Source: Branchinecta lynchi (Eukaryota; Arthropoda; Branchiopoda; Anostraca; Branchinectidae). Taken from it: a stretch of DNA of 64,000 bases. Made by a program: the position numbers and the translations under genes. Below, in pieces: positions 4,577-52,487 of this stretch; the first letter of the stretch is position 1; each line of letters starts with the position of its first letter. The DNA is taken from the NCBI GenBank assembly GCA_023053575.1, contig JAKZAP010000017.1:21995023-22059022 (forward strand), in the 5' to 3' direction. The notes beneath the pieces are model-generated. The model was not told the DNA's origin. It was given only the letters and a program-made list of their open reading frames with translations, and made no database searches.

Positions 4577-5687
4577 GTTGTCGACAAAACGTCCCCATTC
4601 GAAACGTCCCCCGACGAAACGTCCCCGTGACAAAACGTCCCCACGACAAAACGTCCTTGTGACAAAACGTACCAATCAAAACGTCCCCTGGCGACACGTC
4701 CCCGCGGCTATAGATTTTTTTTTCATCGCTGAGGGATAGCTAGGCCTATGAGACTACTAATTGCGTCATCAGTTCAGGCAAAAAATATTATTGGAATTTA
4801 AACTTTTGAAAACCACGATGGGTTGGATTTAATTCAGCATCTAACCGATAGTCAAGAAACAAACCAAAGTACTGCTCTCGGCTATAGCCATTTCTTAAAG
4901 AAAGTGCAAGGTTTAGTACTTTGCCAGTTTTCGTTTTATCTTTTATTTAAATGGTTTGTTTTGTATGTTAGTTTTATTAAAGCTTTTATTAAAGGATCAA
5001 ACTGTCTAACCTAGATTTACTTGTCTCTCTACCTAACTAATTGATAACTAATCTAAATATGCTTTGAGCCAAGCTGACTTTGAAACATTTATTCAAACAA
5101 TGTTTACAACGGATACGTCAGCTATTATTCTTCATCAGCGATATTTCGGCCCTTCTTGGCAAGAACTATCAAAGATTAACAAAAGATAAAGAACAATAAA
5201 AGATAACTAATCGTTCATCCGCTTTTGTTTCCTCGCTTCCCACATCATTTTTATCCAGCGTAACGGCACTACACTTATTTTTGCATTTTCCTTGTTTGGC
5301 TCTCTTTGAGCCACAGCGGGCTTCCCCTTTCTCTGAGGAGCCTAGTGTTGCTCCTCAGATTGTGCATGTTGCTTCAAACGACTTAGAACTGATCAGTTAC
5401 GAGTCAACTGCAAGGCATATTTACACTACATACTTTAACTGAAAAAATACATTTATGAAGCAACCGGTTCTATGTCCGATCTTTCCCGCTAAAAAGGAAT
5501 GTTTCCACATCTGTAATGCACAATCTGAAGTTGTTTTACCTCGATCATGCAACTTAAAAATCTATGCTTGGGGACGTTTCGCCACGGGGACGTTTTGTCA
5601 TGGGGACGTTTTGTCACGGGGACGTTTTGTCATGGAGACGTTTTGTCACGGGGACGTTTTGTCATGGGGACGTGTCGTCGGTAAGCC
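4577..5687. mobile_element. DNA transposon with 16-bp tandem repeats in its TIRs, inserted in the LINE
   Basis: The 10-bp duplication CTTTTCATGG lies at 4567-4576 and 5688-5697. Both termini are arrays of a 16-bp unit, GGGGACGTTTTGTCAC on the right (about 5570-5680) and its reverse complement on the left (about 4582-4705), giving inverted repeats over 100 bp long. The 10-bp duplication and long TIRs resemble Mutator/MULE-type elements. No transposase is present, so it is non-autonomous. The interior contains a hammerhead-repeat fragment (5060-5173). Confidence 0.8.
5060..5173 (-). repeat. Half copy of the hammerhead-ribozyme repeat
   Basis: On the minus strand the right half of the family is present: CTTGCCAAGAAGGGCCGAAA, TATC, GCTGATGAAGAAT, and on to the tail ending TTGGCTCAAAG. 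The CTGANGA half of the core is missing because the copy breaks just inside stem II, so it cannot cleave. Confidence 0.7.
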
Positions 5688-7099
5688 CTTTTCATGGCTG
5701 ATACCAGGTTTGAACTGATCAGATTGTGACCTTAGCTCGTCAAGGACCCGTTTGACAGGATTCGATGTCGGAGAGTTTGATAGAAGCCTCATTACAGAAA
5801 GTGAGAGGTCGAAATTGTATCGATACTGAAAACCGACCATCAACCTGTTTGTGACCATTAAGAAAGCCATCGGTCCAAATTTCGTTCCTTGAGGAGCTCC
5901 ACATGTAATCGCTAGAAGTTCAGACACTTCCCCGTCCTGAAGCCGCACAGACTGCCGCCTCTCAGAAAGGAAACTTGCCAACATCCGGATTAGAAACTTT
6001 GTAGCTCCCATTGTCTGCTTCGGTAGTGATTGTGAGATGGTCGAGGTAGTCGAAGGCTTTGATGAAGTCAGCTATGATGCAGTCTATGAAAGCTCCATCA
6101 TTCTCCAGGTGGGCAAGTATGTCATGCAGAAACTTTACAAGGTAATGGACTGTGCTGAATCCGGGACCGAATCCGTATTGTCTAGGGTCAATTTTAGTTC
6201 CAATCTGTTCGCGCAACCACTTAAAGATAAAACTCTCAAAGATGTTTGAGAAAACCGACGTAACAGATATGGGCCTTAGGTCATTGGCTGACTTTGGAAA
6301 CTGTTTTTGGGGGATTGGCGTTATCGTAGCAGTTTTCAGTCTTCTAGGAAATTTGCCCTCGACCAAGCATTGGTTGATCACAGCTGTAAATGGTGCTGCA
6401 ATGTCATCGGCACACACCTTTACTAGTTTGGCTGGGACTTCTCCGGGGAGTGAAGCTTTTCGATCGTCAAGCTTCGATAGTGCTCCGAAAACTTCGCCAA
6501 TTTCCACGACTGGGATTTCAGAAACGGGTGGGAGGTCAGGCAAACGCTGAAGGCCAGGATGCTTTCGGCAAATAGTTGCAAAATGCAGGTTGATGGTGTC
6601 AGCCGATATTTTTTCTCCTCCTTCATCCCTTAGAACCAGTATCTTCTTCTCTTTGCCCATCAGCTGCTTGACCGCACCGTGGAATTTACAGGTTCAGTTT
6701 TTTCTAGTTTTTTAAGTGCAACAGAACCATATTGATTTCTTACTTTTTTTTGTTTCTTAATAATAAGGTTCTTTAGCTGTTTTGCTTTTTTTATATGAGT
6801 CATTTCTTTCCTGAATCAAGGACTTGATCTCGTCGCTTATCCATGGCTTAAGGTTTGGAGTCACAAACTTAGTTTTCAGTGGAAAATAAGCTTGAAACAT
6901 CAAATTTAACTGATCTCAGAACTGGTCTGTCTCAGTTTCTCAATCTGCAGATTTATATGGCTGCGTCCAGTTAAAAGAGAACAATGCGGACCTGAAGTCT
7001 ATTACGGCAGTTTCAGTGTAAGAACGAAATTATATATATTTTTCTTTTCAGGAACTGGCATGAACGACTTTGGTCTCTAAAGAACCATTAGGTGATCAC

Positions 7100-8998: not shown

Positions 8999-10343
8999 TG
9001 TATCACAATAATTACGGTTTAAAGATGTTCAGTCCAAGTCAAACAAATCTAGTGAAACGCTTGGCAGGAATATCAGCGAACCGACCAGATTAACTTGGGA
9101 TATAATCATATTCCGGATCCGATCATAGTGGGGGGAGTGGAGGGATGGGAAATCCGGAAACTATTAACATGCATAACTTTGGAAAGGGTAATCAGACATA
9201 CGTGAAACTTGACCTTTGTGTTGCCAGTCCAGTTTTCTACCACTGAGCCATGCCATGATCTATAAACAAGACCAAAGGTTTCGATGGGATCCCAAAATTC
9301 AATATCTGATCCAGACAACAGGGTCTTGTCTTAGCCAGATCCAGTCTTCGCCAGACTCCTTGAACATTTTTACAATTAAAATTCAGAAACAGATTAAGGC
9401 AAAATAGCTAATCACCTGAGAAAACCAAGTTCAGATTTGGATTCAGCATGTGTGTTTACCCCTATCATATCTGTTTTGACGAAAACTTCCTGCCACTTCT
9501 GCTAATTTCCCGGTTCCGGCCGAACTCCAGAACTACTTGTCCGGCGAAAAAAGAAAGCTCAAACACGAAATCAGGGTATCTTCTTTCCCCAGTAATGAAC
9601 ATCTAATCAACTTCAAATAGAAATTTAGCTTATAACAAATTTTCCGATTCCAGCCGGATTCCGGTCGAACTATATGTCCGGGTAAAATATGATTGTCATA
9701 CAGGGACTCAGCATCTCTTCTTACCCCTAAATCGCTTATCTAATCAACTAGAAATAAAACTTTGACTTCCAACAGTTTTCCGGTTTTGGCCGGATTCCGG
9801 ACGAACTACATGTCCGGGTAGAAACTTGTTTTCACATAAGTGTTCAGCATGTCTTCTTGCCCTAAATCGAACATCTAATCAACTCCAAATAAAACTTTTG
9901 ATTTTGACAAACTTTCCGGTTTGGGCCGGATTCCGGTCGAAATACTTGTCCGTCGAGAAAGTAGTTTTCACCATCGTCTTCAGCATGTCTTCCTACCTCT
10001 AAATCGAACATTTAATCAACTTCAAATAAAACTTTTACTTTCAACAAACTTTCCGGTTTGGGCCGGATTCCGGGAGAAATACTTGTCCGTCGAGAAAATA
10101 GTTTTCACCATCGTCTTCAGCATGTCTTCCTACCCCTAAATCGAACATCTAATCAATTTCAAATAAAACTTTTACTTTCAACAAACTTTCCGGTTTGAGC
10201 CGGATTCCGGGGGAAATACTTGACCGTCGAGAAAATAATTTTCACCATCGTCTTCAGCATGTCTTCCTACCCCTAAATCGAACATCTAATCAACTTTTAT
10301 TCAAACAATGTTTACAACGGATACGTCAGCTCTGATTTTTCAT

Positions 10344-10387
10344 CAGCGATATTTCGGCCCTTCTTGGCAAGGGTCCTCGTCAGGCTG
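10344..10387 (-). ncRNA. Hammerhead ribozyme motif (type I, short stem III)
   Basis: Minus strand: CAGC (stem I), CTGACGA, stem II GGACCCTT/AAGGGCC with a bulged A and loop GCCAAG, GAAA, TATC, GCTG (stem I). Both conserved cores are intact. The cleavage triplet is AUC, and the predicted cut falls between 10348 and 10347. Stem III is only an AT/AT pair, as in minimal metazoan hammerheads, which often act as dimers. Confidence 0.75.
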
Positions 10388-10425
10388 TCAGTCTTCTTGA
10401 CTGACAAGAAGTCCAAGAAGACTGA

Positions 10426-10469
10426 CAGCCTGACGAGGACCCTTGCCAAGAAGGGCCGAAATATCGCTG
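10426..10469 (+). ncRNA. Hammerhead ribozyme motif (type I, short stem III)
   Basis: Plus-strand partner in the same palindrome: CAGC 10426-10429, CTGACGA 10430-10436, stem II to 10457, GAAA 10458-10461, TATC 10462-10465, GCTG 10466-10469. Core and stems are identical to the minus-strand copy. Predicted cleavage is after 10465. A full-length transcript of either strand would also fold as one long hairpin, which would compete with the ribozyme fold. Confidence 0.75.
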
Positions 10470-10984
10470 ATGAAAAATCAGAGCTGATGTATCCGTTGTA
10501 AACATTGTTTGAATAAATGTTTCAAAGTCAGCTTGGGCTCAAAGAATATTTATCTAATCAACTTCAAATAAAACTTTTACTTTCAACAAACTTTCCGGTT
10601 TTGGCCAGATTCCGGGCGAACTACTTGTCCGATGACAAAATGGTTTTCATCATCGTGTTCAGCATGTCTTCTTACCCCATAATCGACTATCACATTAGCT
10701 GTTTCAAAACATTTTGTTTGTCCCTTAATTTGAATCCCCTCCCCCACCCCTAAATGTAGAGCTACAAAGCCCATCTACGAACTTGACTGGTCCGACGACC
10801 CAACGAACCCTCACACCAGGTTTCATCAAAATATCTCATTCCCTTCGAGAGTTATCGTGCTTACAGACAGACGGACAGACGGACGGACGGACGGACGGAC
10901 GGATGGACGGACGGACAGACGGACCACTTTTGCGATGTCACAGGTATCCCTCCACTTACGTTTTGGGATCCCAAAAAGTGAATG

Positions 10985-11420
10985 CGAGAATAGATACGGT
11001 TTAAAGATGGTCAGTCCAATTCAAACAAATCTAGTGAAACGCTTAGCAGGAATATCGGGGAACCGACCAGATTAACTTGGATATAATCATATTCCGGATA
11101 CGATCATAGTGAGGGGAGTGGAGGGATGGGAAATCTGGAAACTATTAACATGCATAACTTTGGAAAGGGTAATCAGACATACGTGAAACTTGACCTTTGT
11201 GTTGCCAGTCCAGTTTTCTACCACTGAGCCATGCCATGATGTATAAAAAAGCGAATGCGAGAATAGATCCGGTTTAAAGATGGTCAGTCCAAGTCAAACA
11301 AATCTAGTGAAACGCTTAGCAGGAATATCAGGGAACCGACCAGATTAACCTTGGATATAACCATATTCCGGGTACGATCATAGTGGGGGGAGTGGAGGGA
11401 TGGGAAATCCGGAAACTATG
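10985..11420. repeat. Tandem copies of the DNA flanking A1
   Basis: GGTTTAAAGATGGTCAGTCC, AGTCAAACAAATCTAGTGAAA and TTTTCTACCACTGAGCCATG recur at 9015-9255, 10997-11240 and from 11270, a tandem unit of about 265 bp. It is part of the B1 composite. The middle copy retains an uninterrupted GTATAAAAAAGCGAATGCGA junction where A1 sits in the first copy. Confidence 0.65.
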
Positions 11421-13376
11421 GTCTGTCGGTCTGTCCCGGTTTTGCTAGTTTGGGCACTTCCACATAAGCTAGGACGATGAAAACTGGCAGGCGCATAAGG
11501 GACCGAACCAGATTAACATGGAAACAAGCACTTCCCGATCCGGCCATCGTGGGGGGGGGGGGGGGTTGAGCAACAAGAAATCCGGAAACTAGTAACATGC
11601 ATAACTTTAGAACGGGTAATCGGACTTGCATGAAACTTGACATATGTCAAGAACAAGTGCCGATAACTGGGGGGGGGGGCTGGAGGGGGGCACCCAAAAC
11701 CTCGTGAAACGCTTCCACATAAGCTAGAACGATGAAACTTGGCAGGCGTGTTGGGAAACCGACCAGATTAACTTGGAAATAATCACTTCCCCGACCCGGC
11801 CATCTTGGAGGCAGTGGAGGGATGGGAAATCCGGAAAGTGGTAGCATGCCTAACTTTTGAACAGGTAATCAGATATGCATGGAACTTGACAAATGTCAAG
11901 AACAAGTGCTTCAGAAGCTCAATTGCAAATCCGGACCAGATCCGATAACTTGGGGGGTTGGGAGTTGGAGGGGGCACCAGAAATCTCATGAAACGCTTCC
12001 ACATAAGCTAGGACACTGAAATTTGGCAGGCATATCAGGGAACCGACCAAAAGAACTTGGAAATAATCACTTTCCCCATCCGGCCATTGTGGGAGGAGTA
12101 GAGGGATGGGAAATCCGGGAACTAGTAACATGCATAACTTTGGAACGGGTAATCAGACATGCATGAAACTTGACATATGTCAAGAACAAGTGCTTCAGAT
12201 GCTCAGTTTTAAATCCGGACCAGATCCGATCACTGGGGGGTGAGCTGGAGGGGCAACCGGAAATCTGGTGAAACGATTCCAAATCAGCTAGCACAATAAA
12301 ACTTGACAGGCATATGATGGAACCAACCAGATTAACATGGAAATAATCACTTCCCCGATCCTGCTATCGCGGGGGGGGGGGGGGGGATGGAGGGAAGGGG
12401 AATCCGGAAACTAGAAACATGCTTAACTCTGGAATGGATAATCGGACATGCATAAAACTTGACAATTGTGAAGAACAAGTGTCTCAGATTTTCAGATTCA
12501 AATCTGGACCCAATCCGAAGAGAGGAGGATTAGAGGGGGGGGGGACCGGAAATGTCGTGAAATGCTTAGGGTCGATGGATAGGGATGTCACAGTAGAGGA
12601 GTTGGAAGGGGTTTTCCCGGATTTCCGGTGATCACGAGTTAGGGTACTTCCACATGTACTAGGACCATGAAACTTGGCAGACATATTGGGTAATCTTCCA
12701 GGTCAACTTGAAAATAGTTCTTTTCCCGATCCGATGATCATGGGGGAGATTCTATTGACATGCATAACTTTGGAACAGGTGATCAGACGTGCATGAAACT
12801 TGACAAGTGTCAAGAACAAGTGACTCAGATGATCAATTTCAAGTCTGGAACGGATCTGATAACATCGGGAGGAGCTGAAGGGGGAGAAATCTCTTGAAGC
12901 GCTTAGAGTCGAGAGATCGGGATGGGACTTGGAGGGAAGAACAAGCATAAGCCATAGATACATTGTAGAGGCTTAACGGCCTGCCATTCAATTTGCAAAT
13001 ATATTATTATTATTATTATTATTATTGACAAAACAGGACCCATCGTGTCACAGTGGGGGGAGTTGGAGGGGATTTTCCCTAATTCCGATGATCACGAGTT
13101 AGGGTACTTCCAGATGTGCTATGACCGTGAAACTTTGCAGGCATGTTAGGGACTCTATTAGATTGGCTTGAAAATATAGTCCCTCCCCCGATCCAATCAT
13201 CGTTGGAGGAAGATACAGTTGTCAATGAGTGGTATAACCATTTCAGATCTACTAGATCAAGCCCATTTTCTGATGAAATGAATATGGGGAGAGAGATCCA
13301 GCCTTGAAAACTGCAAACCGTATCGGACAAACACGCTAACTGTTCTTACAAGTGCCATATGAGCTTTCAGCTCTTG

Positions 13377-13782
13377 TTTTGGCTGGATTCGAATCTTCTG
13401 CTTGTTAGGCTAGGTTCGGACTGGATTCCTAAACCCTCAATCTTCCGAAACCGCTCACATTTCTAGTCTACATCCTTCCAGTTTCCGTTACCCAATTTCT
13501 ACACAATGGACTTGGGCAATCCTATCCGTCTATCACGTTATCTGATTACCTTAGATATCGCTGCTTTTTAACACCTCTGATTTTTAAACTATAACCTACG
13601 TATATGATTTGATTTTTGTTATGAAATGGTGGATTCGTGATCGGATTCGCCCATCTCTGAATATTTCTGCTGTAGAATTCATCCTAGCTTTCGCATTCAA
13701 AAGCTAAATGATTTATGTTCTCATTCATACATACCACATCAGAGAGAAGCACTGAAAACTTCCAACAAACAAGTTTGAAAAA
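13377..13782. other. Downstream of ITPA, nothing recognised
   Basis: No coding frame or repeat that I can support between the family B end and the ITPA polyadenylation signal. Confidence 0.4.
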
Positions 13783-13788
13783 TTTATT
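13783..13788 (-). terminator. ITPA polyadenylation signal
   Basis: AATAAA on the minus strand (TTTATT on plus), 15 bp past the ITPA stop codon. A short 3' UTR is implied. Confidence 0.7.
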
Positions 13789-13802
13789 ATGAAAATGGCC
13801 GG

Positions 13803-14134
13803 CTATTCTTTCATTGTGGCAAAGTAGTTCTTTAAAGCATCCATTGCTTTGCTTCTGTGGGATATCTGATTCTTTAGTTCCTTTTCCATCTCTGCGTATG
13901 TCTTGTCATATCCTAAGGGTTGAAAGCACGGGTCCCAGCCAAAGTTCTTCGGACCTCTAGGAACTACGATGCTGCCATCTGTTTGTCCTTTAAAAAGTAC
14001 AACTTCGTCGCCTGGATTACCGGTATGGAACGCAAAGGTACATAGGGCGTAGGCACTTTTATCTTCCCAACCATTCAGGAGTTTGTGAAGACCTTCTGGT
14101 CCGAGTTTGGAAAGGAACCATTTGACGTAGGGAC
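13803..14134 (-). CDS. ITPA: ITPA coding exon 3 (C-terminal)
   Basis: The acceptor TTTTTGCAG precedes GTCCCTACGTC. The exon completes the split Gly codon (GLPG-PYVK) and runs to a stop at 13803-13805, ending in NYFATMKE. It holds the FGWDPCFQP and SHR motifs. Confidence 0.92.
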
Positions 14135-17100
14135 CTGCAAAAAGATAAGAAATCCAAAATCGAGGAGGGTCGAATGGCACCAAAAACTGGGGATTCTCCT
14201 CAAGTACCATAAACTAAGACTCTCAGACTTGCCGTAAAGTTATTGGCCGTTCGAAATCATTCTCCTGGTTTAGCAATGCTCACTGTATGTTTTGAAACTG
14301 TGATAGAGGTGTCGACTTAATTGTATTGGAATTCCAAGCAGCCGTGACGTATATAGTGACGTCGCGTGATTGAAGACCCAACATAGGATTTGATTATCCC
14401 TAGGTCGTTTCATGAATGTAAACGCGACCGGCGCCTCGCTGGTCGCTCGGCTCTCTATATATATATTAAAGTATATCTTCACCAATAGGAACAAACTACA
14501 ATTTTTCGTTTTCTGAGGATAAAATAGATCAAACAGGTGTGACGTCACGCTTGTATGGAATTACGATACAACTTAATTCGGACCGTGATAAAAGACACAT
14601 CGCACCATAGTTTGGTTCTTCAAGAAAACAAACATTTCTTGATCGTTCTCTACCCAAACCCTGCGTCGGAACCGAGACGCGTGTCATCTAGTGAGTATTT
14701 CGCCAATAAACCAGTACACTGCACTATTACTACTAATGTGCGTGCACTATTACTACTAATAGGCGCTATTATGTTATGCACTATTATATTACTACTAATA
14801 TGCACTGCTACTACTAATGTGCACTATGCAACATTACTAATATTTATTTTTTTATCTTGCGTATTTACTACGTTATTGAACGCTGATGAAGAATCGTAGC
14901 TGACGTATCCGTTGTATACATTATTTGAACATATGTTTCAATGTCAGCTTGGGCTCAAAGAATATGTATTTTTTCCTTTTATTGGTCGGTACTGCACTAA
15001 TTTTCTTAAGTGCTTAAATAAAATTTCATCATCATCATCATTATATGCAGACAAGTCGGTCAAGTAAACATTTTAAATTTGTATGGGGATATTCATAAAA
15101 ATAGAGTACCAAAAAAGGACATGCAACATGCACTTACCTGGGAGTCCCTTGAGAGCATGGAAACACAGACATGTGTCTTCAACGATCACTGGGGCCTGGA
15201 TTAGTCTAGACGCTTCAAGGCATTTCGCTTTGCAAATTTCATCTGGCTCTCCTTGAAACTCGGGAAGGTCGATGCTTTGGTTGATCACCTAGAGGAAGTA
15301 TGATGTACTGACGGAGTAGGCGTGAAAACTCCCAGCCATAAGATATTGCAAGGGTGTTCTTGTGCACCTTCGCAGTCCTTCAACCTTTTACCCGAAAAGT
15401 GTGAGGGGTAGAAAGGCAAGCTGCACCACGGGCCTTGAAGTTTACGGCCGAGTTTACGCTGACCCGCCTAATGTTTTAGTGATTAAGAGTATGCTAGTTG
15501 ATTCACTGTTTTTTGGGATCCCAAAACGTAAGTGGAGGGATACCTATGACATCGCAAAAGTTGTCCGTCTGTCCGTCCGTCCGTCCGTCTGTCCGTCCGT
15601 CTGTCCGTCCGTCTGTAAGCACGATAACTCTCGAAGGGAACGAGATATTTTGATGAAACTTGGTGTGAGGGTTCGTTGGGTCGTCGGACCAGTCAAGTTC
15701 GTAGATGGGCTTTGTAGCTCTACATTTAGGGGTAGGGGAGGGGATTCAAATTAAGGGACAAACAAAATATTTTGAAACAGCTAATGTGATAGTCAATTAT
15801 GGGGTAAGAAGACATGCTGAACACGATGGTGAAAACTATTTTGTCATCGGACAAGTAGTTCGCCCGGAATCCGGCCGAAACCGGAAAGTTTGTTGAAAGT
15901 AAAAGTTTTATTTGAAATTGATTAGATGTTCGATTTAGGGGTCGGAAAACATGCTGAAGACGATGGTGAAAACTATTTTCTCGACGGACAAGTATTTCGC
16001 CGGGAATCCGGCCCAAACCGGAAAGTTTGTTGAAAGTAAAAGTTTTATTTGAAGTTGATTAGATGTTCGATTTAGAGGTAGGAAGACATGCTGAAGACGA
16101 TGGTGAAAACTATTTTCTCGACGGACAAGTATTTCGACCGGAATCCGGCCCAAGCCGGAAAGTTTGTCAAAATTAAAAGTTTTATTTGGAGTTGATTAGA
16201 TGTTCGATTTAGGGCAAGAAGACATGTTGAACACTTATGTGAAAACAATTTTCTACCCGGACATGTAGTTCGTCCGGAATCCGGCCAAAACCGGAAATCT
16301 GTTGGAAGTCAAAGTTTTATTTCTAGTTGATTAGATAAGCGATTTAGGGTAAGAAGAGATGCTGAGTCCCTGTATGACAATCATATTTTAGCCGGACATA
16401 TAGTTCGACCGGAATCCGACTGGAATCGGAAAATTTGTTAAAAGCTAAATTTCTATTTGAAGTTGATTAGATGTTCATTACTGGGGAAAGAAGATACCCT
16501 GATTTCGTCTTTGAGCTTTCTTTTTTCGCCGGACAAGTAGTTCTGGAGTTCGGCCGGAACCGGGAAATTGGCAGAAGTGGCAGGAAGTTTTCGTCGAAAC
16601 AGATATGACTTATAGGGGTAAAAACAACAGGCTGAATCCAAATCTGAACTTGGTTTTCTCAGGTGATTAGCTATTTGGCCTTAATCTGTTTCTGAATTTT
16701 AGTTGTAAAAATGTTCAAGGAGTCTGGCGAAGACTGGATCTGGCTAAGACAAGACCCAGTTGTCTGGATCAGATATTGAATTTTTGGGATCCCATCGAAA
16801 CCTTTGGTCTTGTTTGTACATGTTTTGATTGTTTTGTGTTTTTTTCTTTCTCCTTTTTAAATGATTATAACGATAATAATAATACGGTTTCTTACATGGT
16901 TATTTTTGGACAAATATGACAGCAATTGGCAACGGCCAACGTCTGGGGTGACCCTGCTAGGATTTCAGTTCACACAAGTGCGCAATTCAAGCTTCGAACA
17001 GGGTGGTATGAAATAAGTTTCTGTAAGTAGACTGTTGTAGGTTGTTCCGTTTAGTAAGGTTTCCACTATAATCAGCAACTGAATGGCCTAAGTGTCGCTT

Positions 17101-20100
17101 TAATTCTGAGCACATTAACAATAGGGAGTAGCGCCACGACCTATGCTTTAGGTGCTTCGCAATCAGGCCCTACTCGTAGCGCCGCCCACTCCGCTTGCGG
17201 CATTTAAAGCGAGAAAAACTTGCGGGTTTAGAAATTTCTAGTAAAGCAAAGATGCGCCCTACACACATCAAGGATACAGGGGAGGTTGTACCATTTTTGT
17301 GTTGTGTTCAGAATATGAAGTTATTGGAGCCAGAACTGGTGCACGACTGGTTGAGTTTGAGTAGGGAAGTTCTCTGTCGCTAGCGGTGCTAGTGACGCTG
17401 CCATTCGAGTGTGTGTCACTTTTTTAAAGTCCTGGCTCTACTCCCTAGTCTTATTTTGCTCTGCTTTATTGATCTGTACACTTTAGCATTGCCTCAACAG
17501 CGATACCCAGGAACAAAACAAACAAGTGCGCAAGCGCTTTGACGTGGAGTGTGAAAGTAAAAAAATGTATCACAAACCTAGGCCCAGTTATCCATGAACG
17601 GGAGGGTGGGGGGGGGGGGGAACCTATATCTAGACCTAAATATCCTCGACTACACCAACTTAGAGTTTGATTCCAGTCACGGGTCAACAACTTTACTCAT
17701 GGGCAAACTGGGCACACTTGCCCATCAACAGCGGGGGGGGGGGGGGGGGGTGGCTCAACTCCACATTGATATTCCCAACCCGATGATCCAAGAGCACAAA
17801 GGAGTTTCATCGCTATCTCTAGTTTTTGTCAAGTTAAAAACATAAAAAATGGGCAATCTGGGCCCAATTGCCCCTGAACGAAGTGGGGTTTAGTCTGGGG
17901 ACCGCAAAAAGCAAAAAGAAACCCCGATGCTCTCAAACCTAACAAGTTTCAACTTGATATCTGTTGATTCCTGTCATGGGTAATGAACTTTACTCCTGGG
18001 CAATCTGGGCCCAGTTGCCCTTGGACGGGGTGGGTGGGGGAGGTGAAACTTCGAAAATATTTTCCCAGCCCTAGGACCTACAAGTACAAGGAACTTCATC
18101 GTCCTATGTCCAGGTCTGGTCAAGTTATGAACATTATTCACTGGGCAAAATGGGCCCATTTGCCCCTGAACCGGGTGGGTGTGGGGGGGGGGCCAAAAGA
18201 CACAACTAGACCCCAATACCGACAGGTGTACCAAGTTTGAACTTGATCCTTGAGATCGAGAGAGTTCAGAAGAGATGTAGTCAGATAATTTATGGTGGAC
18301 CAAAGCATCCATTATTCTTACTACCTGAAAGAAGTTAATCTTCAACTTTGGCTGAAAGAATGAAAAACCTTTCCCTAAATTTTTTTCAAAAGCTTCTAAA
18401 ACATCCTTTCCACAGCTGTCTCTTGCCTCTCCCATATGTTCCAAAGTTGACACCTGTTTTTGCTAAAACAGACCGCTATAAAAAGAGCTTTGTGCCTAGT
18501 TGTGTGGCTCTTTCTAACTCAACTTGACTTATAGTGTTTTCTTTTTGCTGATTGTGTATAATGTGTCTATTTGCTAACAAAGTATGTACCTGACGAAAAA
18601 ATATCAAATTTGGCAGTTTCCTAAGATAAGCCAAATTTTTTAATTAAAGTTTTATTCTATTCTATTCTACTTGCACTGGTTCACGAGTTATGATCTTCAC
18701 AAAATACGGTGAAAACCGAAAGCGGAAAGCTGCTATAGCGCTGGCAATAGTAGATTGTTCCAAGGAACACTCCACTAAACCCCACTGTCAACCTAGCCGT
18801 AGAACTCTACACTTCCAGAATGGCACTGTCTAGGGAACCGGGAGCCGTACTTTATGTCCTACGGGCAAGGGAACCAGTAGTCTTCACGGAAACCAAACCA
18901 TATGAGCTGCGACTCCGGGATCTGACGTCATTGACTAATGGAAACTTGTATGTGCTGTCTCCCGCTCCGGTAGTAAGTGGAAATAGCTCACGGAAACTTC
19001 ATCGCACCAGCTTCTCGTCCGGTAGTCTCACGAAATTGTCTACTCAGAAGCTAGGGAGCCAGTAGCTGATGCAGGAAACTATATAATTGGAGCTTGTGTT
19101 CCGGTAGTGTCGACATGGAATACAGAACTCACGGAACAGTTTTGATGAGAGCTAGGATGCCGGTATTTTCACTGACTTTGAGAAAATAACATGGACAAAA
19201 ACCACTATATACCAGAATTCCCGAACCCATATATTGAAAGATAAGGTACCGGTAGCAACAACCAAAATCATTCATCCAATTCTTTACCTGTCGGACATCG
19301 TTTGCTGGCGGGTCAAAAATAAATTACTTACTTACTTACTTACTATTTGGTAGAAAATGACCAGCTCACGGACACAGATGGCTACGGGCTAGGGTTCCAG
19401 TAGTGCCAATTTTTTTTTGCAGACTAGGAAACCAGAAGTGAATAATTTTAACTCACTCTTTTTATCTCGTGGGTTCAAAAATATTATTTTTTTTTGCACT
19501 ACCGGAACCCTAGCCCATCGGAGATGTGTTCCGTGAGTTAAAAATATTTGCTAGCCGAATCCAAGTTCGTGTTGAGAAGTGTCTGTGAGTTCGTAACTTT
19601 CAGTTTTAGTACTACCGGAAGTGTCCGTGAGCTGGTCATTTTCAACCAAATAGTTGTTGCTACTGGTACCTTGGCTCTCAATATATGGGTTCCGGTAGTG
19701 GATTTTTTCCCATGTTCTTTTTTCTAAGTCAGTGAAATTCCCGGCATCCTAGCTCTCATCCGAACTATTCCTTGAGTTCTATATTCCATGTAGGCACTAC
19801 CGGAACACAAGCTCCAATTACACAGTTTCCGGTATCAGCTACCGGCTCCCTAGCTTCTGAGTAGACAATTCCGTGAGACTACCGACCGGACGAGAAGCTG
19901 GTGCGATGAAGTTTCGGTGAGCTATTCCCACTTACTACCGGAACGGAGCCAGCACATACAAGTTTCCGTTAGTCAATGACGTCAGATCCCGGAATCGCAG
20001 CTCATGTGGTCTGGTTTCCGTGAGAACTACCGGTTCCGTAGCCCGTAGGACATAAAGTACGGCTCCCCGTTCTTAGACAGTGCCTTCCAGAATATCTTGT

Positions 20101-20931
20101 ATCAATATCCGTTCACAAGCAGCGGCACCGTGCCGATTCAACTCCAAATCCAGTTTATTCGCGTCTCTATCTCGGTCTCTGTTCGGGCCTTACGGTAAAT
20201 TGGTGTATTTTTTTTTTTCAGATAATAAACAAGGGTCGTTCTGCAGGTATTGAGATAACGCCGTATCCCCAACGGCTCTTCTTTCCAAAAGACCAAAAGA
20301 CAGTCCTGATGGCACACTTTAGAAAAAAAAAAACATATTCAAAGCATTGACAGTTTCGCACTATTTTACTAAGTAAACAACAATTCGAGATCGCTTACTC
20401 GGCGAATTGGGGAGAAAGATCCAGGCACTTTAGCAAAAAAAAAAATCTTCCAGGGTTATATATTCCCACTATTCCCAGTTTCTTATTTCTTTTGCTCAAA
20501 CGGTTTAGAACTGGGACTAGCTTTTGCAACAACAACAGTCAATCCCTAGTTTTTGCTTTTAGCATAACACATGGTAATGGGCTGGCTGAAGTCCTAGCTG
20601 TATTACGCAAACACAGAGTAAGGTATTTTATTCTATGCACGTAGCCTACAACTAACACACTTGTTTCTTACAGCCGAGTTGAAAGGCGGCGCTAGGCGAG
20701 CCATCTGCTGTTAGACGTGGCATTGTATTCAATTCTTTCTCTTTGCCGTAAATTATTTCTTGACGAAACGGAAAGTGCCAATCGCGTAAAGCTGAGAGCA
20801 CAAGCTTTTAAGAAAAAATATATAATGTAGCTTACTTTGTATGGAAATTCTTCTCCCAGAATTGCAATAAACTCTTCCAGTTTTTTCACGTTTCCAGTAA
20901 CAAATGTGACTGGTTTCAATTTCCAAGACAT
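13803..20931 (-). CDS. ITPA: Inosine triphosphate pyrophosphatase, three coding exons
   Basis: ITPA hydrolyses ITP, dITP and XTP to the monophosphate and pyrophosphate, cleaning the cytosolic nucleotide pool. Exons 20931-20836, 15288-15138 and 14134-13803 join in frame (96+151+332 nt) to 192 residues; human ITPA has 194. Visible blocks in order: [20 protein letters not shown] (phosphate-binding N-terminus, residues 9-29), [33 protein letters not shown] with the conserved Asp, [38 protein letters not shown] and a C-terminal [10 protein letters not shown] (Ser-His-Arg base-recognition motif). Introns are GT-AG: intron 1 phase 0 (5547 bp), intron 2 phase 1 (1003 bp). The ATG at 20931 is chosen because homologues start just before the TGN motif. 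No disabling change is seen. Intron 1 is packed with transposons. Confidence 0.93.
14135..15137. other. ITPA intron 2
   Basis: Contains a low-complexity run of CACTATTACTACTAAT words (14700-14830) and a hammerhead-repeat tail fragment (14881-14970). A 114-codon plus-strand frame at 14555-14899 is made of these repeats and is not a gene. Confidence 0.7.
14881..14970 (+). repeat. Tail fragment of the hammerhead repeat
   Basis: Starts at CGCTGATGAAGAATCGTAGC, exactly downstream of the usual cleavage position, and continues through ACGTATCCGTTGTA to CAGCTTGGGCTCAAAGAATA. The catalytic core is absent. Confidence 0.65.
15138..15288 (-). CDS. ITPA: ITPA coding exon 2
   Basis: The acceptor TTCCTCTAG precedes GTGATCAACCAAAGC (VINQS); the donor is CAG/GTAAGTG at 15137. 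It encodes [13 protein letters not shown] and [16 protein letters not shown]. This is an internal exon, so the GTG is a Val codon and not a start. Confidence 0.92.
15509..16812 (+). mobile_element. Helentron-like element, family A (copy A2)
   Basis: Plus orientation, without nested inserts: TTTTTTGGGATCCCAAAACG, GTAAGTGGAGGGATACC, a long (GTCY)n tract (15568-15615), ACTCTCGAAGGGAACGAG, GATGAAACTTGGTGTGAGGG, about seven 137-bp units with CCGGAATCCGG, then TTTTTGGGATCCCATCG and CCTTTGGTCTTG/TT at 16812. It is an inverted partner of A1, about 5 kb away. It lies in ITPA intron 1. Confidence 0.75.
16813..17123. other. ITPA intron 1 segment, nothing recognised
   Basis: No gene or clear repeat that I can support. 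Confidence 0.4.
17124..17445. mobile_element. MITE with GGGAGTAG ends, TA target site
   Basis: Ends GGGAGTAGCGCC and GGCTCTACTCCC, flanked by TA at 17122-17123 and 17446-17447. Internal words TTGCGGGTTTAG, ATTTCTAGTAAAGC and AGAATATGAAGTTATTGGAG are shared with a longer relative at 42536-43321. Confidence 0.75.
17590..18240. repeat. Tandem array, about 147-bp unit, GGGCCC palindrome
   Basis: Units recur at about 17700, 17850, 17997 and 18143, a period of 146-148 bp, after a diverged unit near 17590. Each contains a palindromic motif such as GGGCAATCTGGGCCCAGTTG followed by CCC, and a G-rich block GGTGGGTGGGGG. A related pair lies at 28484-28640. A unit length close to nucleosome size is suggestive but not proof of a satellite role. 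Confidence 0.7.
18244..18672 (+). pseudogene. LINE RT C-terminal tail with ATTCT repeat end
   Basis: Plus-strand reading gives [20 protein letters not shown], then after a frameshift [20 protein letters not shown] and [15 protein letters not shown] before a stop. This is the extreme C-terminus of a non-LTR ORF2. A TTTTATTCTATTCTATTCTA tail marks the 3' end. It is 5'-truncated, dead, and antisense to ITPA inside intron 1. Confidence 0.75.
18822..20084. mobile_element. Giant foldback element in ITPA intron 1
   Basis: The left arm (18822-19600) is the diverged reverse complement of the right arm (19605-20084 with inner continuation). For example GGAGCCGTACTTTATGTCCT at 18840 matches AGGACATAAAGTACGGCTCC at 20048. 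Motifs CTACCGGAAC and TTCCGTGAGCT recur many times in each arm. Inner arms, including TAGGGTTCCAGTAGTGCCAA against ACTACCGGAACCCTA, continue the hairpin nearly to the centre. Arm structure with short internal repeats recalls Drosophila FB foldback elements. No coding frame. An 81-bp insertion (19263-19343) is in the left arm only. Confidence 0.8.
19263..19343 (+). mobile_element. 81-bp retroposon 3' end with TTAC tail
   Basis: Present in the left arm only, between CAACAAC and TATTTGG. The right arm keeps the uninterrupted form (CCAAATAGTTGTTGC on plus). It ends in TTACTTACTTACTTAC after GGGTCAAAAATAAA, typical of a 5'-truncated LINE or SINE 3' end. Confidence 0.65.
20085..20833. other. Proximal ITPA intron 1, nothing recognised
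   Basis: A/T-rich intron sequence with a few poly-A and poly-T runs. No gene or element that I can support. Confidence 0.4.
20836..20931 (-). CDS. ITPA: ITPA coding exon 1
   Basis: The ATG at 20931 begins [20 protein letters not shown] and the exon ends GEEFPYK before the donor AAA/GTAAGC (20835). It contains the TGNxKK phosphate-binding motif. Thirty-two codons, phase 0 exit. Confidence 0.92.
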
Positions 20932-20939
20932 GTTGTATT

Positions 20940-21240
20940 TCCTTTATAACTTCTTATTTCTTGTCTAGGAAGCCGAGTGCCGATATGAGTTGCGTTTTGT
21001 AGATACCATGCTATTCTGAATCCACGGTCTAAAGTCCTTTTTGAAGTTATCGTGGTATCTGGCCAGTTGTCGTGGTACATGTATCGTGGTACCGATATTC
21101 AGATACCAAGGTCCGACTGTGTTAACTGATCGTATGTATCTGAAAAAGTCATCTCACTTTCATCATCACTAATAATAGAGCCTAGGATTTTGTGAAAGTT
21201 TTTGTTTCAAGCTTGACACTTAGTAGTGTGACTGGATATC
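20940..21240. other. ITPA upstream region
   Basis: The likely promoter is here but I see no convincing TATA box. Repeated ATCGTGGTATCT / GTGGTACC words at 21045-21110 resemble the hairpin at 47278-47372 and may be a repeat. Confidence 0.35.
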
Positions 21241-21577
21241 AGTTTTTGGGATCGAAAATCGTAAGTGGAGGGATACCTATGACTTCGTAAAAGTTGTCCG
21301 TCAGTCTGTCTGTCCGTCTGTAAGCACGATAACTCTCGAAGGGAATGTTGATGAAACTTGGTGTAAGGACTCTTTGGGTCAAGGGAAAGGTCGAGTTTGT
21401 AGATGGGCTTTGTAGCTCAACATTTAGGGGTGGGGGAGGGGGTTAAAATTAAGGGGCGAACGATTGTTTTTTAACAGCTAATGAGATAGTCGATTTAGGG
21501 GTAAGAAGACATGCTGAACACGAAATATGAAATATATTTTCTCGCCGGACAAGTAGTTTGCCCGGAATCCGGCTAAA

Positions 21578-21737
21578 AGTGCGAACACACGATGAGGATC
21601 TCCCGGCCGGATTTCCTGCACTTACATCACCAAGTCGAAAAAGTTTCAACTTTTCCATATGGAAGTGATGATGGTGCCGCAAATCCGGGCAGGAATTCCC
21701 GACCGGGAGCTCACGATCCTCATCGTGTGTTCGCACT
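21578..21737. mobile_element. 160-bp MITE with long perfect inverted ends
   Basis: AGTGCGAACACACGATGAGG at the left and its exact reverse complement at the right. Flanks read TAAAA on both sides (21574-21578 and 21739-21743, with a 1-bp overlap or extra TA), so the duplication is TA or TAAAA. It lies inside a 137-bp unit of A3, whose other copies give the empty site. Confidence 0.75.
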
Positions 21738-21956
21738 ATAAAACCGGAAATTTTGTTAAAACTAATAGTTTTATTTGAAGTTTATTAGATGTTCAATTTC
21801 GGGTAAGAAAACATGCTGGACATTTATAAAAAAAACATTTTCTTGTCGGACAAGTTATTTTTGACGGAAATTTTTTGTATTTGTTAGTTTTATTTAAAGT
21901 TGATAAGATTTATTCAAACAATGTTTACAACGGATACGTCAGCTATGATTCTTCAT

Positions 21957-22000
21957 CAGCGATATTTCGGCCCTTCTTGGCAAGGGTCCTCGTCAGGCTG
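21957..22000 (-). ncRNA. Hammerhead ribozyme motif (type I, short stem III)
   Basis: Minus strand: CAGC, CTGACGA, stem II GGACCCTT/AAGGGCC, GAAA, TATC, GCTG. All core positions are intact and identical to the motifs in H1. Predicted cleavage is between 21961 and 21960. Confidence 0.75.
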
Positions 22001-22084
22001 TCAATCCTCTGGTTCAACTTCGGGGAAGGAAACGGGGAAGGAAGGAGGTTTGTTTCCTTCCCCGAAGTTGAACCAGAGGATTGA

Positions 22085-22128
22085 CAGCCTGACGAGGACC
22101 CTTGCCAAGAAGGGCCGAAATATCGCTG
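22085..22128 (+). ncRNA. Hammerhead ribozyme motif (type I, short stem III)
   Basis: Plus strand: CAGC 22085-22088, CTGACGA 22089-22095, stem II to 22116, GAAA 22117-22120, TATC 22121-22124, GCTG 22125-22128. Intact core, predicted cleavage after 22124. Confidence 0.75.
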
Positions 22129-22380
22129 ATGAAGAATCATAGCTGACGTATCCGTTGTAAACATTGTTTGAATAAATGTTTCAAAGTCAGCTTGGGCTCA
22201 AAGAATATTTATCTACCTTGATAAGATGTTCGATTTAGGGCTAAGAAGACATGCTGAGTCCGCTTTTAAAAATTGTTTTCTATCCGGACATATAGTTTGC
22301 CCAGAATTCGTCTGAAACTGGAAAAATTGTTAAAAGTTACAAGTTTATCTGAAGTTGATTAGATGTTAGATAAGGAGTAA

Positions 22381-35440: not shown

Positions 35441-36554
35441 CAAGACCAAAGGTTTCGACGGGATTCCAAAAATTTAATATTTACAGACAATCGGGTCTTG
35501 TAGCGGTCCAATGGTAATCATTGGAGAAGACGCAGTTCAAATACGGATTCAGCATGTGAGTTTACCCCTATAGCCTGCGTCATGTCTACTTTGACGAAAG
35601 TTCCTGCCTTACTTCTGCCAAATTTCAAGTTTCAGCCGGATTCCGGGCGAACTACTTGTCTTGCAAAAAATTAAAGTTCAAAACAGATCCAGCGTATCTC
35701 CATACCATCCATATCTCCACAATCAACTTAACATAAAACTTCAACTTTTAACAAATTTTCCGATTTCAGCAGGATTCGAGGTGAAATGTGTCCAGGTATA
35801 AAATGATTGTCATACACGAATTCAGCATGCCTTCTTACCCGTAAATCGAATGCCTTCTTACCCGTAAATCACCTAATGAAATTCATATAAAACTTATACC
35901 TTTAACAGATTTTCCAGTTATGGCCGGATTCCGGGCGATCTACTTTTCCGGTGACAAAATAATTTTCATATTCGAATTCAGCATGTTTCACTATCTTTCA
36001 ATCGAACCTCTAATCAACTTCAGATTAATCTTTTGTTTTTGCCAAACTTTCCGGTTTTGGCCGGATTCCGGCCGATCTACTTCTCCAACGAGAAAATCAT
36101 TTTCATATCCTTATTCAGCATGTCTCCTTACCCATAAATTGGATATCTAATCAACTTCAGATAAAACTTTTACTTTTAACAAACTTTCCGGTTTTAGCCG
36201 GATTCCAGGTGAACTACTTTTCCGGCGAGAAAATGGTTTTCATATTCATGTTCAGAATGTCGTCTTGTATCTATCTCATTAGCTTTAAAAAAATATTTGT
36301 TTCGCCCCTTAATTTGAAACCCCTCCCCTTTCCCTAAATATGCAGCTATCGGGCCCATCTTCGAACATCGACCTTTCCCTTGACTCGATGAGTCCTCACA
36401 CCAAGTTTCATCAAAATATCTCATTCCCTTCGAGAGTTATCTCGTTCTCTTCGAGGGTTATCGTGCTAACAGACGGAGAGACGGACGGACGGACAGAGGG
36501 ACAACTTTTACGATGTCATAGGTACACCTCCACTCACGTTTTGGAATCCCAAAA
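35441..36554 (-). mobile_element. Helentron-like element, family A (copy A5)
   Basis: Minus strand from TTTTTGGGATTCCAAAACG (36554) through a (GTCY)n tract near 36470-36500, CTCTCGAAGGGAATGAG and several 137-bp units to CCTTTGGTCTTG at 35441. The palindromes are slightly mutated (GGGATTCC). Confidence 0.7.
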
Positions 36555-38800: not shown

Positions 38801-39249
38801 TATCATCAACCATTAACAGTCAATGTCCAAATTCTCACGGGCACGTCAAATAGACCTATTCGATTTCCAGCCCATCGGAATCGTTTTACAACCTGCCATC
38901 CACAGAGAAAATGCCTGAAAAGCCGAGTCACGTAATTGCCTACTGTATAACTTTACTCTTAACAGCTGAATGGGCGGGAATTTTCAAATCTGATGAGTCA
39001 CGAGTCCGTGTCTAACATGCTCATTCGCTAGTATTGCATTCGTAATAGTCAACGATTTCCCACGCATGCCTGGATATGAATGGACTTTTGAATCGTAGGT
39101 CCATCAGTGGACCACAAAACAATGGCCGGAAGAATAGTAAGGGATAGGGCATAGATAGAAAATGGTAAGATGCAACAGTAATGGATCACTCGATTCGGCT
39201 TAGGATGGATATTAACCGTCCGGATCTTTCCTCTTACAAACAACTGATT

Positions 39250-39745
39250 TTGCGCGATTTTTCGGCCTTTCTTGGCAAGGCTCCTCTCCAGGCCGTAACT
39301 TGAAAATTGGAGCTTCCGGAATCTTTTTATTATTTTTAGTTATTTTCATTGTGCAAATTTTAAGGATTTGAATTTTAAGAATTTCTGGATCTGAAATACT
39401 TTTTTGGCCATTCTTGGCAAGGGACCTCTCCTTGAAAATTGGAACTTTCGTAGTTTTTCTTTTAGTTATTTTAATTGTTATCATCGTGTAAATTTTAAGG
39501 ATTTACTTTTTTAAGAATTTCTGGATCTGAAATCGGAAATAGTTTGGCCCTTCTTGGCAATGCTCCTCTTCAGGTCGTAGCTGGAAAATCGGAACTTGCG
39601 GTAAAAAATAATCAATATTCTAATAATTTTCGATTTGCAAGTTTTAAGGATTTCATTTTTAAGAATTTCTGGAACCAAACTATTCGGCAATTTCTCGGCC
39701 TGTCTTGACAAGGGTTCTCTTCAGGCCATGAAATCGGACCTCTGT
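39250..39745 (-). repeat. Tandem array of four degenerate hammerhead units
   Basis: Minus strand. Stem II words built on CTTGCCAAGAA recur with plus-strand positions 39271, 39413, 39553 and 39704, a period of about 140-150 bp. Cores are mutated: CTGGAGA, GGAGAGG, CTGAAGA and CTGAAGA for the first half; CGAAAA, CCAAAA, CCAAAC and CGAGAA for the second. Units share TAAGGATTTxxATTTTAAGAA words. The arrangement is that of a retrozyme-like tandem array that has decayed. Confidence 0.65.
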
Positions 39746-50428: not shown

Positions 50429-50515
50429 AAAACGGATACGTCAGCTGAATTTTATTAGAGCTATATTTCGGCCCTTCTTGGCAAGGGTCCTATTCAGGCG
50501 CAAAACCGCTAAGTT
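50429..50515 (-). repeat. Degenerate hammerhead repeat fragment
   Basis: Minus strand CTGAATA in place of CTGANGA, then GGACCCTTGCCAAGAAGGGC, CGAAA, TATA and GCTCTAATAAAATTCAGCTG. The core G at position 8 is changed to T, so cleavage is unlikely although GAAA and stem II are intact. Confidence 0.65.
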
Positions 50516-50985: not shown

Positions 50986-52487
50986 CAAGATCTAAGGTTT
51001 CGATGGGATCCCACAAATTAATATTTGTTCCAGACAACTGGGTCTTGTCTTCGCCAGAACCAATCTTCGCCAGGCTAATCATTAGAGAAAACGAAATTCA
51101 GATGTACCTCTATAAGCCATATCTATTTTGACTATACTTACCGAAACTTCCGGCTTTACTTCTGCCAAATTTCCGGTTTCGGCCGAATTCCGGGCGAACT
51201 ACCTGCCCAGCAAAAAAAGAAAATTCAGAATCGAATTCAGCGTACGGTATCTCCTTATAATCAATTTAAAATAAAACTTTAGCATCTAAAAAAAAAAACA
51301 CGGTCAGAACCGGATTCCGGACGAATTATTTGTCCGGTCAAAAAAATAATTGTCATTTACAGACTCAGCGCCTCTTCTTACCCCATATCTTCATCTAATC
51401 AACTTCAAATAAAACTTATTACTTTTAACAGATTTTACGGTTTTGACCGTATTCCGGGCGAACTAGTTGTCAGGGTAGAAAATGCTTTTCACATAAGTGT
51501 TCAGCATGTTTACTTACCCCCAAATCGAGCATTTAATCAACTTCAAATCAAACTTTTACTTTTAACCAACTTCCCGGTTTTTGCCTGATTCCGGTCAAAC
51601 TAGTCGTCTGGAGAGAAAATGGTTTTCACCATCGTTTTCAGCATATCTTCTTTTCCCTAAATTGAATATTTAATCAACTTTAAATGAAACTTTTACTTTT
51701 AACCAACTTTCCGTTTTTTCCGGATTCCGAGCGAACTACTTGTCGGACGAGAAAATGTTTTGCATATTCATGTTCACCTTGTCTTCTTACCTCATAATCG
51801 ACTATCAAATTATCTCTTTAACAATATTTTGTTTGCCCTTAATTTAAACCCCCTCCCCCACCCCTAAATGTAGGGCTATAGAGCCCGTCTACGAACTTGA
51901 CCTTACGCTTGACCCAAAGAGTCATCACACCAAGCTTCATCAAAATGTCTCATTCCCCTCGAGAATTATCGTGCTAACAGACAGACGGACGGACAACTTT
52001 TACGATGTCATACAGGAGTGCTGCGTGAAGCCGCCACCCTAAACTCCTATTTTTGGGAAATGACTTAGGGAAAAAGAGTAAAGGTTGAGATAAAATTCAG
52101 TGGAGTATCCTGAATGGAAGCTTAGAACCTTCACTTTCTGCTGGTACCATAGTTTACTTGTAATTGTTCAAGGCTAAGCTAGAGAACACGAAAGAATGTA
52201 GGCACCCAAGTGATCATGAAGTCGCCCACTTTGCTAAAAATAGTATTTTGCTACATGGTGAAGTTAGAGGCCAGCTGTTTGGTCAGAGAGGTTCCTTGAC
52301 CTTTTGCAAATAACAAAATTTGCTGTTTTCTTGGAATTTGCATGATTTTTCTGGGGTGGCAGCTTCATGATCCAAGGTGGCAGGATCATGTACCATGGCC
52401 AATTGGGGGGTGGGCGGTGCCATAGTAAGGGCAGCTTCATGCAACACTCCTGTAGGTATCTCCACTTACGTTTTGGGATCCCAAAAA
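50986..52487 (-). mobile_element. Helentron-like element, family A (copy A7)
   Basis: Minus strand from TTTTTGGGATCCCAAAACG (52487), AAGTGGAGATACC, [440-bp MITE], TGACATCGTAAAAG, GTCCGTCCGTCTGTCTG, CTCGAGGGGAATGAG, then 137-bp units, to GATGGGATCCCA-type sequence near 51003 and CTTAGATCTTG at 50986. Confidence 0.7.
52013..52452. mobile_element. 440-bp MITE, CAGGAGTG ends, TA target site
   Basis: CAGGAGTGCTGCGTGAAGC and GCTTCATGCAACACTCCTG (23-bp TIR with three mismatches), flanked by TA (52011-52012, 52453-52454). Other family A copies read GATGTCATAGGTA at this point and so provide the empty site. Confidence 0.88.

Follow-up and report, generated by a model that had tools for sequence, protein, structure and literature searches.

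Why do two short elements in the genome of the anostracan Branchinecta lynchi each carry a hammerhead ribozyme motif on either strand, in mirror-image order? The stretch of DNA that raises this question (hereafter the window, 64 kb; positions 21995023-22059022 of contig C8 in an assembly of 575.7 Mb and 216 contigs) contains two such inserts, here called E1 (10297-10553) and E2 (21909-22218). They are non-autonomous inverted pairs of the pseudo-long terminal repeat (pLTR) of an endonuclease-type Penelope-like element (PLE), devoid of its open reading frame (ORF). Judging from the arm ends described below, palindromes of this type are probably pairs of target-primed cDNAs, one per cut strand, which would have had capped, uncleaved mRNA as their template and would then have become connected in head-to-head order. 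With regard to how PLEs insert and how their inverted pLTRs arise, experiments separating self-priming on antisense transcripts from the use of sense templates have been called for (PMC3846280). Mirror-image pairs, if they are insertion scars, offer a test of how PLEs insert, and the genome is rich in short inserts whose ends can be read, which makes it possible to count both start sites, the cap ends and the joins.

The four motifs, which are identical to one another, and the two head-to-head inverted repeats claimed for the window in an earlier note were both confirmed. The CTGACGA core starts at 10430 (+), 10383 (-), 22089 (+) and 21996 (-), each time preceded by CAGC and with GCTG standing after GAAATATC, and the alignments of E1 and E2 with their own reverse complements are far beyond chance (94.8% over 232 bp, E 1e-101, and 92.7% over 289 bp, E 4e-117, respectively). 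By direct reading, both ends of each insert are adjoined by a target-site duplication (TSD), of 11 bp in E1 and 9 bp in E2. The outer ends are unequal, the left arm starting with TTTATTC and the right arm being about 37 bp longer, to ...AAAGAATATTTATC. No ORF of at least 150 amino acids lies inside E1 or E2, so that the PLE proteins are not encoded there. The coordinates of all these features are collected in Table 1.

A full-length element, L019/L039 (loci are cited by their L numbers), has been found in the same assembly, with direct pLTRs of 352 bp (98.9% identity) and, between them, an ORF of 863 amino acids (P0031) that starts at the tail, the 3' excess of the long arms. In the coordinates of this source pLTR, +1 is the A of ATTACAGG, a TATA box (TATTTATA) stands at -30, the hammerhead occupies approximately 45-88, with its core at 49 and its cut site between 84 and 85, and the start codon lies at 136. 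The start codon of L039 coincides with the ends of the short arms, so that the tail represents the first dozen codons. On its protein motifs and flanks, the source of E1 and E2 is an endonuclease-type PLE: the ADKG, SxD, MG and RxVDD motifs of a PLE-kind reverse transcriptase (RT) are invariant when the L039 ORF is aligned with seven homologs, the C-terminal GIYSIPC...YVGRT...R...EH aligns with the GIY-YIG region of P0001 and P0015, and pLTRs, a tail and short TSDs are all present (TSDs of 7-11 bp in 13 of 41 clusters by automatic search, and by eye at E1 and E2). At least 30 homologs of the L039 protein were retrieved, 24 with RVT_1 and 2 with GIY-YIG in precomputed annotation. Pfam scans of P0031 itself returned no family, GIY-YIG being undetected there, the GIY-YIG domain of P0001 scores just under the Pfam cut-off, and a PDB sequence search gave no lead.

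A closely similar organisation has been described in Penelope elements of the rotifer Adineta vaga (Pen2a_Av and others; PMC3846280), where an ORF with RT and GIY-YIG stands between direct pLTRs, its first codons lying inside the pLTR, with a 31-bp tail on one side, a 9-bp TSD, palindromes at the inverted junction and, at the 5' end, an adjacent inverted pLTR in head-to-head orientation, its length being 37 bp below that of the direct pLTRs. The two cases differ in the very low copy number of A. vaga and in the absence of an ORF from most palindromes examined here; moreover, the authors of that study favour self-priming on antisense RNA, and the word hammerhead is absent from its main text.

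In B. lynchi, the mirror-image arrangement is frequent. A DNA search gave 40 places with the whole or nearly the whole query, corresponding to 39 distinct inserts (L023 and L024 are one), of which 29 are head-to-head palindromes: 26 of the first 29 places (not L012, L014 or L019) and three of the other ten (L065, L066 and L067). The remaining ones among these ten are not palindromic: L062, L063, L064, L069, L070 and L071 within the stretch fetched, and L068, itself a single copy with a separate palindrome beside it. This sample is small, and its query includes the long tail and thereby favours long ends. A second sample, not selected by the tail, was made up of 25 of 100 places listed, taken by eye for motif likeness from plus-strand hits in the initial part of C1; 15 of these hits, distributed over 14 inserts, are members of the E1/E2 family, and seven of the 14 are palindromic (L044, from the same sample, forms a complex direct tandem). 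In ten arbitrary places totalling 60 kb, one of four inserts with at least 88% identity has an antisense partner, and in the window two of the four better-preserved copies are palindromic. Matches to a loose core pattern number 42,665 and 46,453, compared with 16,991 and 16,033 when the pattern is reversed as a control, so that copies of the motif must be very numerous. The suggestion that a palindromic two-ribozyme arrangement is unusual is not supported, given the 29 of 39 best places that show it and the inverted pLTRs already published (PMC3846280).

In the analysis of arm ends, aligned segments with at least 88% identity and spanning position 115 were taken as arms (n=97); 49 of them were the hits used to choose the loci and had to carry the core, and the other 48 are free of this selection. 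At the 3' side, 39 of the 97 arms end at 133-142 (short) and 42 at 165-184 (long), with one at 143-164, three at 125-132 and 12 beyond 184; the free arms comprise 33 short, 13 long, two below 133 and none between. These two ends are combined in the palindromes. Among 38 of them (29 best places, E2, seven from C1 and the neighbour of L068; the outer ends being counted in the composite inserts L013, L018, L025, L027 and L055a), 32 join one short to one long outer end, or 35 if near misses are admitted, and none has two short ends. The strict tally is composed of 23 of the first 26, E2, five of the seven from C1, L065, L066 and the neighbour of L068; the remaining two from C1 have short ends at 131 and 125.

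At the 5' side, the main end site lies 30 bp downstream of the TATA box: 58 of the 97 arms end at -5 to +5, with 16 further upstream, 20 at 6-83, one at 84-86 and two later (28, 3, 14, 1 and 2, respectively, for the free arms). In the arms stopping there, the base before +1 is G in 39, T in 15, C in 5 and A in 3 (n=62; binomial p 3e-10), and in the arms that read through it is T in 20 out of 20. In retroelements, the copying of an mRNA cap leaves an extra G. The cut site of the ribozyme is the 5' end of a single free arm out of 48, which suggests that the template RNAs had seldom undergone cleavage at the hammerhead.

Where two exact cap ends face each other, the join itself can be read. Ten fillers of 4-32 nt, from nine loci, share with the arm ends a longest piece averaging 9.2 nt, compared with 4.3 nt after shuffling, and for eight of the ten less than 1% of shuffles are as good. 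This pattern resembles templated end joining, or strand-switching between two cDNA ends. The palindrome centres compared are all different, apart from those of L022 and L032, which are alike except for some 3 nt.

The following sequence of events is proposed. Both strands of the target would be cut by the endonuclease of the element, some 7-11 bp apart. The two 3' ends would then act as primers within a capped sense mRNA, with reverse transcription beginning at the short site from one of them and at the long site from the other. The resulting cDNAs would both pass through the uncleaved hammerhead up to the cap, where an extra nucleotide would be copied (the added G), and their ends would then be joined, with short fillers copied from the cDNA ends themselves. 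The outcome would be two copies of the pLTR, head to head inside a TSD, with the antisense and sense hammerhead motifs as mere by-products. Two target-primed cDNAs would fit most of the end data, as well as the extension of both strands reported in vitro for the protein of an Anolis PLE, which cleaved and extended both strands and started internally at two sites bounding the tail (PMC11167929). This Poseidon element, PAc, is also like the element described here in having a hammerhead beside the start of its ORF, although the ORF begins in stem II in PAc and, here, 87 nt downstream of the start of the CTGACGA core; head-to-head products are not described in the relevant section of that work.

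Several observations weigh against this proposal. The strict pair rule is broken by six of the 38 palindromes: L023 and L037 carry two long ends, L050, L055b and L067 are near misses with the short end at 131, 125 and 149, and in L036 the partner arm comprises positions 1-87, its 3' end being 3 nt past the hammerhead cut site. The start site did not differ between strands in the Anolis experiments (PMC11167929). Single-arm inserts are common, seven of the 14 in the C1 sample being non-palindromic, and L078 and L081 are likewise single arms, with a TSD as read by eye, imperfect in L081. An automatic search found TSDs of at least 7 bp in just 13 of 41 clusters; this search missed those of E1 and E2 because the arm ends overran. 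Finally, the arms of one insert nearly always share subfamily variants. At position 100 they agree in all 27 comparisons from 25 inserts (30 rows, three of L018 without data, with L025 and L027 each entered twice), and none of 20,000 permutations gave as few disagreements. Sharing of this kind implies that a single RNA was copied twice, that the RNAs had a common source or that gene conversion followed, and it does not discriminate two-sided priming on one RNA from the folding back of a single cDNA.

This latter process, in which a single target-primed cDNA reaches its end, snaps back and copies itself into an inverted arm, is unlikely. It would account for the shared variants, for the short centres and for the arms of E1, both of which are truncated at position 33. 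The first strand could then be none other than the long cDNA, so that the short arm should never hold more 5' sequence than the long one. The long arm is the more complete in L010, L013, L016, L029 and L066, but the short arm exceeds it by 12 to 86 nt in L022, L032, L050, L054 and L057. This objection is weakened by the age of L050, L054 and L057 (78-86% identity), where later deletions are possible, and by the likeness of the centres of L022 and L032. In addition, L061 may pair a long arm at about 136-152, whose score is reached by 2 of 200 shuffles, with a short arm of 46-137, the two hardly overlapping, which also speaks against a folded-back copy.

Self-priming on an antisense transcript, the process already proposed for the rotifer Penelope elements (PMC3846280), is improbable here. 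It explains both the head-to-head order and the palindromes, but gives no reason for stopping at +1 with an extra nucleotide, as seen in the 58 of 97 arms at -5 to +5 and the 39 of 62 with G. Loops would also be expected to consist of contiguous upstream sequence, not of rearranged pieces of the arm ends.

It might also be thought that the motifs are there to work, transcripts of either direction cleaving themselves in a retrozyme-like manner. The core CUGANGA and GAAA are present and the base at the cut site is not G, as in the minimal type I motif of PLEs, an isolated 49-nt segment folds into stems I and II (minimum free energy, MFE, -14.8, z -2.96), and one copy in the window (14881) starts at the cut site. 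The description given in the earlier note stands as far as a minimal type I hammerhead of the PLE kind on either strand of E1 and E2 is concerned; its stem III of AT/AT consists of two adjacent pairs without a loop, and these cannot close in a single molecule. Minimal type I hammerheads without helix III, proposed to act as dimers, have been reported in PLE pLTRs; as these are described in later papers (PMC7761336, PMC6155905), the bulged A in stem II is the only distinctive feature of the motif reported here.

The covariance-model check proposed beforehand was run, and the Rfam hammerhead models gave no match at the gathering score over the whole window and none at E<=10 over E1 or E2. This result, named in advance as refuting the motif, counts against it and is judged not decisive, because the absence of helix III is part of the published description of PLE hammerheads (PMC7761336) and stem I covaries in 43 copies. 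Matches to miRNA precursors obtained in E-value mode were discarded, as they are below gathering and such matches fit any long hairpin. The 43 sequences were picked from 56 distinct ones and represent several related families of this genome. Their covariation score (0.129) was not reached by any of 500 shuffles (0.078) nor by slid structures (<=0.056), and the share of paired cells is likewise above all 500 shuffles and the slid controls; the outer pair of stem I is CG in 18, GC in 11, AU in 3, UG in 3 and other in 8. Against a conserved structure, pairs changed on both sides (3) and further pair types (9) were reached by 172 and 454 of the 500 shuffles, and kinship among the copies inflates the remaining figures. 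Taking into account that covariation in stems I and II exceeds both kinds of control, the structure of the hammerhead seems to be conserved and to belong to the minimal type, devoid of helix III, that has been reported from PLEs.

A second, older PLE family differs in its 5' flank, has A at the cut site and carries in most cases GAGC/GCTC in stem I; its members include window positions 50449-50504 (-), L043, L045, L046, L048, L058 and others. A short ORF runs through the hammerhead motif.

Activity within the palindromes is another matter, and a functional two-strand ribozyme is very improbable as their explanation. The alternative put forward in the earlier note, a single long hairpin, is the fold predicted for E1 and E2 (MFE -206.8 and -253.7 kcal/mol), the hammerhead pairs having a predicted probability of 0.0 inside both; that of stem I is about 0 even in +1 to +175 of L039, and only one of the 48 arms not selected for the core starts at the cut site. 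The predicted folding thus speaks against self-cleavage of transcripts in either direction, and since the arms pair with each other in palindrome transcripts, the ribozymes of E1 and E2 are probably silent. Any role of the ribozyme would be a property of the full-length element, not of stubs of the E1/E2 type. In the Anolis PLE, the ribozyme cleaved only when protein was added, and insertion did not need cleavage (PMC11167929). Nor is membership of E1 and E2 among the metazoan retrozymes supported: they have in common a type I hammerhead, a short non-coding retroelement and TSDs of more than 4 bp, but retrozymes consist of tandem repeats and are expressed in the form of circular RNAs (PMC7229834), whereas the arms of E1 and E2 are inverted and originate from a coding PLE, and their stem III cannot close. 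Four decayed hammerhead-like cores at 39243-39731 (-), in direct order, spaced by about 140-150 bp and with flanks unlike the PLE arms, are perhaps the remains of a tandem, retrozyme-like array.

That an amplified palindrome, MITE-like (miniature inverted-repeat transposable element) or ribozyme-bearing, moves as a unit is barely credible, for in spite of its terminal inverted arms with TSDs and of the near-identical sequence of the L022 and L032 centres, all other compared centres differ and the ends are unequal by about 37 bp, which leaves neither the equal termini nor the conserved interior of a terminal-inverted-repeat transposon, and the same ends occur in single-arm and full-length copies. 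Snap-back, antisense self-priming, retrozymes, MITEs and a functional two-strand ribozyme were accordingly all rejected as main explanations.

Besides the palindromes, five inserts (L013, L014, L018, L025 and L027) contain direct tandem joins, in which one copy, extending by 113-141 nt into the ORF, directly adjoins another. In L013, L014 and L025, three of the five, the first copy ends at the identical base, 113 nt into the ORF (position 248), and a cap-start copy comes next, as though the enzyme had switched to a second RNA; in L018 and L027 it ends at 270-276. For the Anolis PLE, reverse transcription starts 111-118 nt into the ORF have been reported (PMC11167929).

Extending the two-cDNA proposal, we tentatively put forward a wider reading, in which the integration of PLEs would be two-sided in general. 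A dimer on one capped mRNA would use two fixed internal starts, one per cut strand, a normal insertion would consist of two converging cDNAs, and the inverted pLTR would be the second cDNA and not an accident of self-priming, with the third site, 113 nt into the ORF in L013, L014 and L025, being used on the jump to another RNA. In the open-access literature, incomplete for key papers, no prior statement of the two-cDNA mechanism was found, which is weak evidence of novelty. Inverted pLTRs about 37 bp shorter and PLE hammerheads without helix III are already published, and the possible novelty lies in the record left by the insertion reaction.

Table 1. Features of E1, E2 and two single-arm pLTR copies (window positions; arm limits in source pLTR coordinates)
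Feature	Positions	Strand	Basis
E1 TSD, left copy, CTAATCAACTT; inside 137-bp tandem repeat (array 9597-10296)	10286..10296		direct reading
E1 short arm, inverted pLTR, sense ~33 to 136-140; end = PLE start codon	10297..10399	-	alignment
Minimal hammerhead motif, E1	10344..10387	-	motif search and reading
E1 centre, filler of local pieces	10400..10413		by eye
E1 long arm, pLTR 33 to 172-175; 3' excess = tail (start of PLE ORF)	10414..10553	+	alignment
Minimal hammerhead motif, E1	10426..10469	+	motif search and folding
E1 TSD, right copy	10554..10564		direct reading
E2 TSD, left copy, TTGATAAGA; 137-bp repeat family as at E1 (by eye)	21900..21908		direct reading
E2 short arm, inverted pLTR, positions ~12-137	21909..22033	-	alignment
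Minimal hammerhead motif, E2	21957..22000	-	motif search and reading
E2 centre, filler	22034..22045		alignment
E2 long arm, pLTR 6-176 with tail	22046..22218	+	alignment
Minimal hammerhead motif, E2	22085..22128	+	motif search and reading
E2 TSD, right copy	22219..22227		direct reading
Single-arm 5'-truncated pLTR copy, positions 61-171, TSD GATAACTAATC	5054..5163	-	alignment
Single-arm copy, 5' end (position 84) at hammerhead cleavage site	14881..14969	+	alignment

The 137-bp tandem repeat family into which E1 and E2 are inserted forms arrays in the window at 9597-10296, 15801-16476, 35873-36261 and 51392-51761, the first two with (GACG)n or (GTCC)n close by, and the insertion spot within the unit is nearly identical for E1, E2 and, apparently, L032. 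Elsewhere in the window, an ORF of 893 amino acids rich in YSAPAPVAQS repeats (58191-60872, +) may encode a cuticle-protein-like product, and an ORF fragment at 5962-6660 (-) resembles, by eye, the reverse transcriptase of a long interspersed nuclear element.

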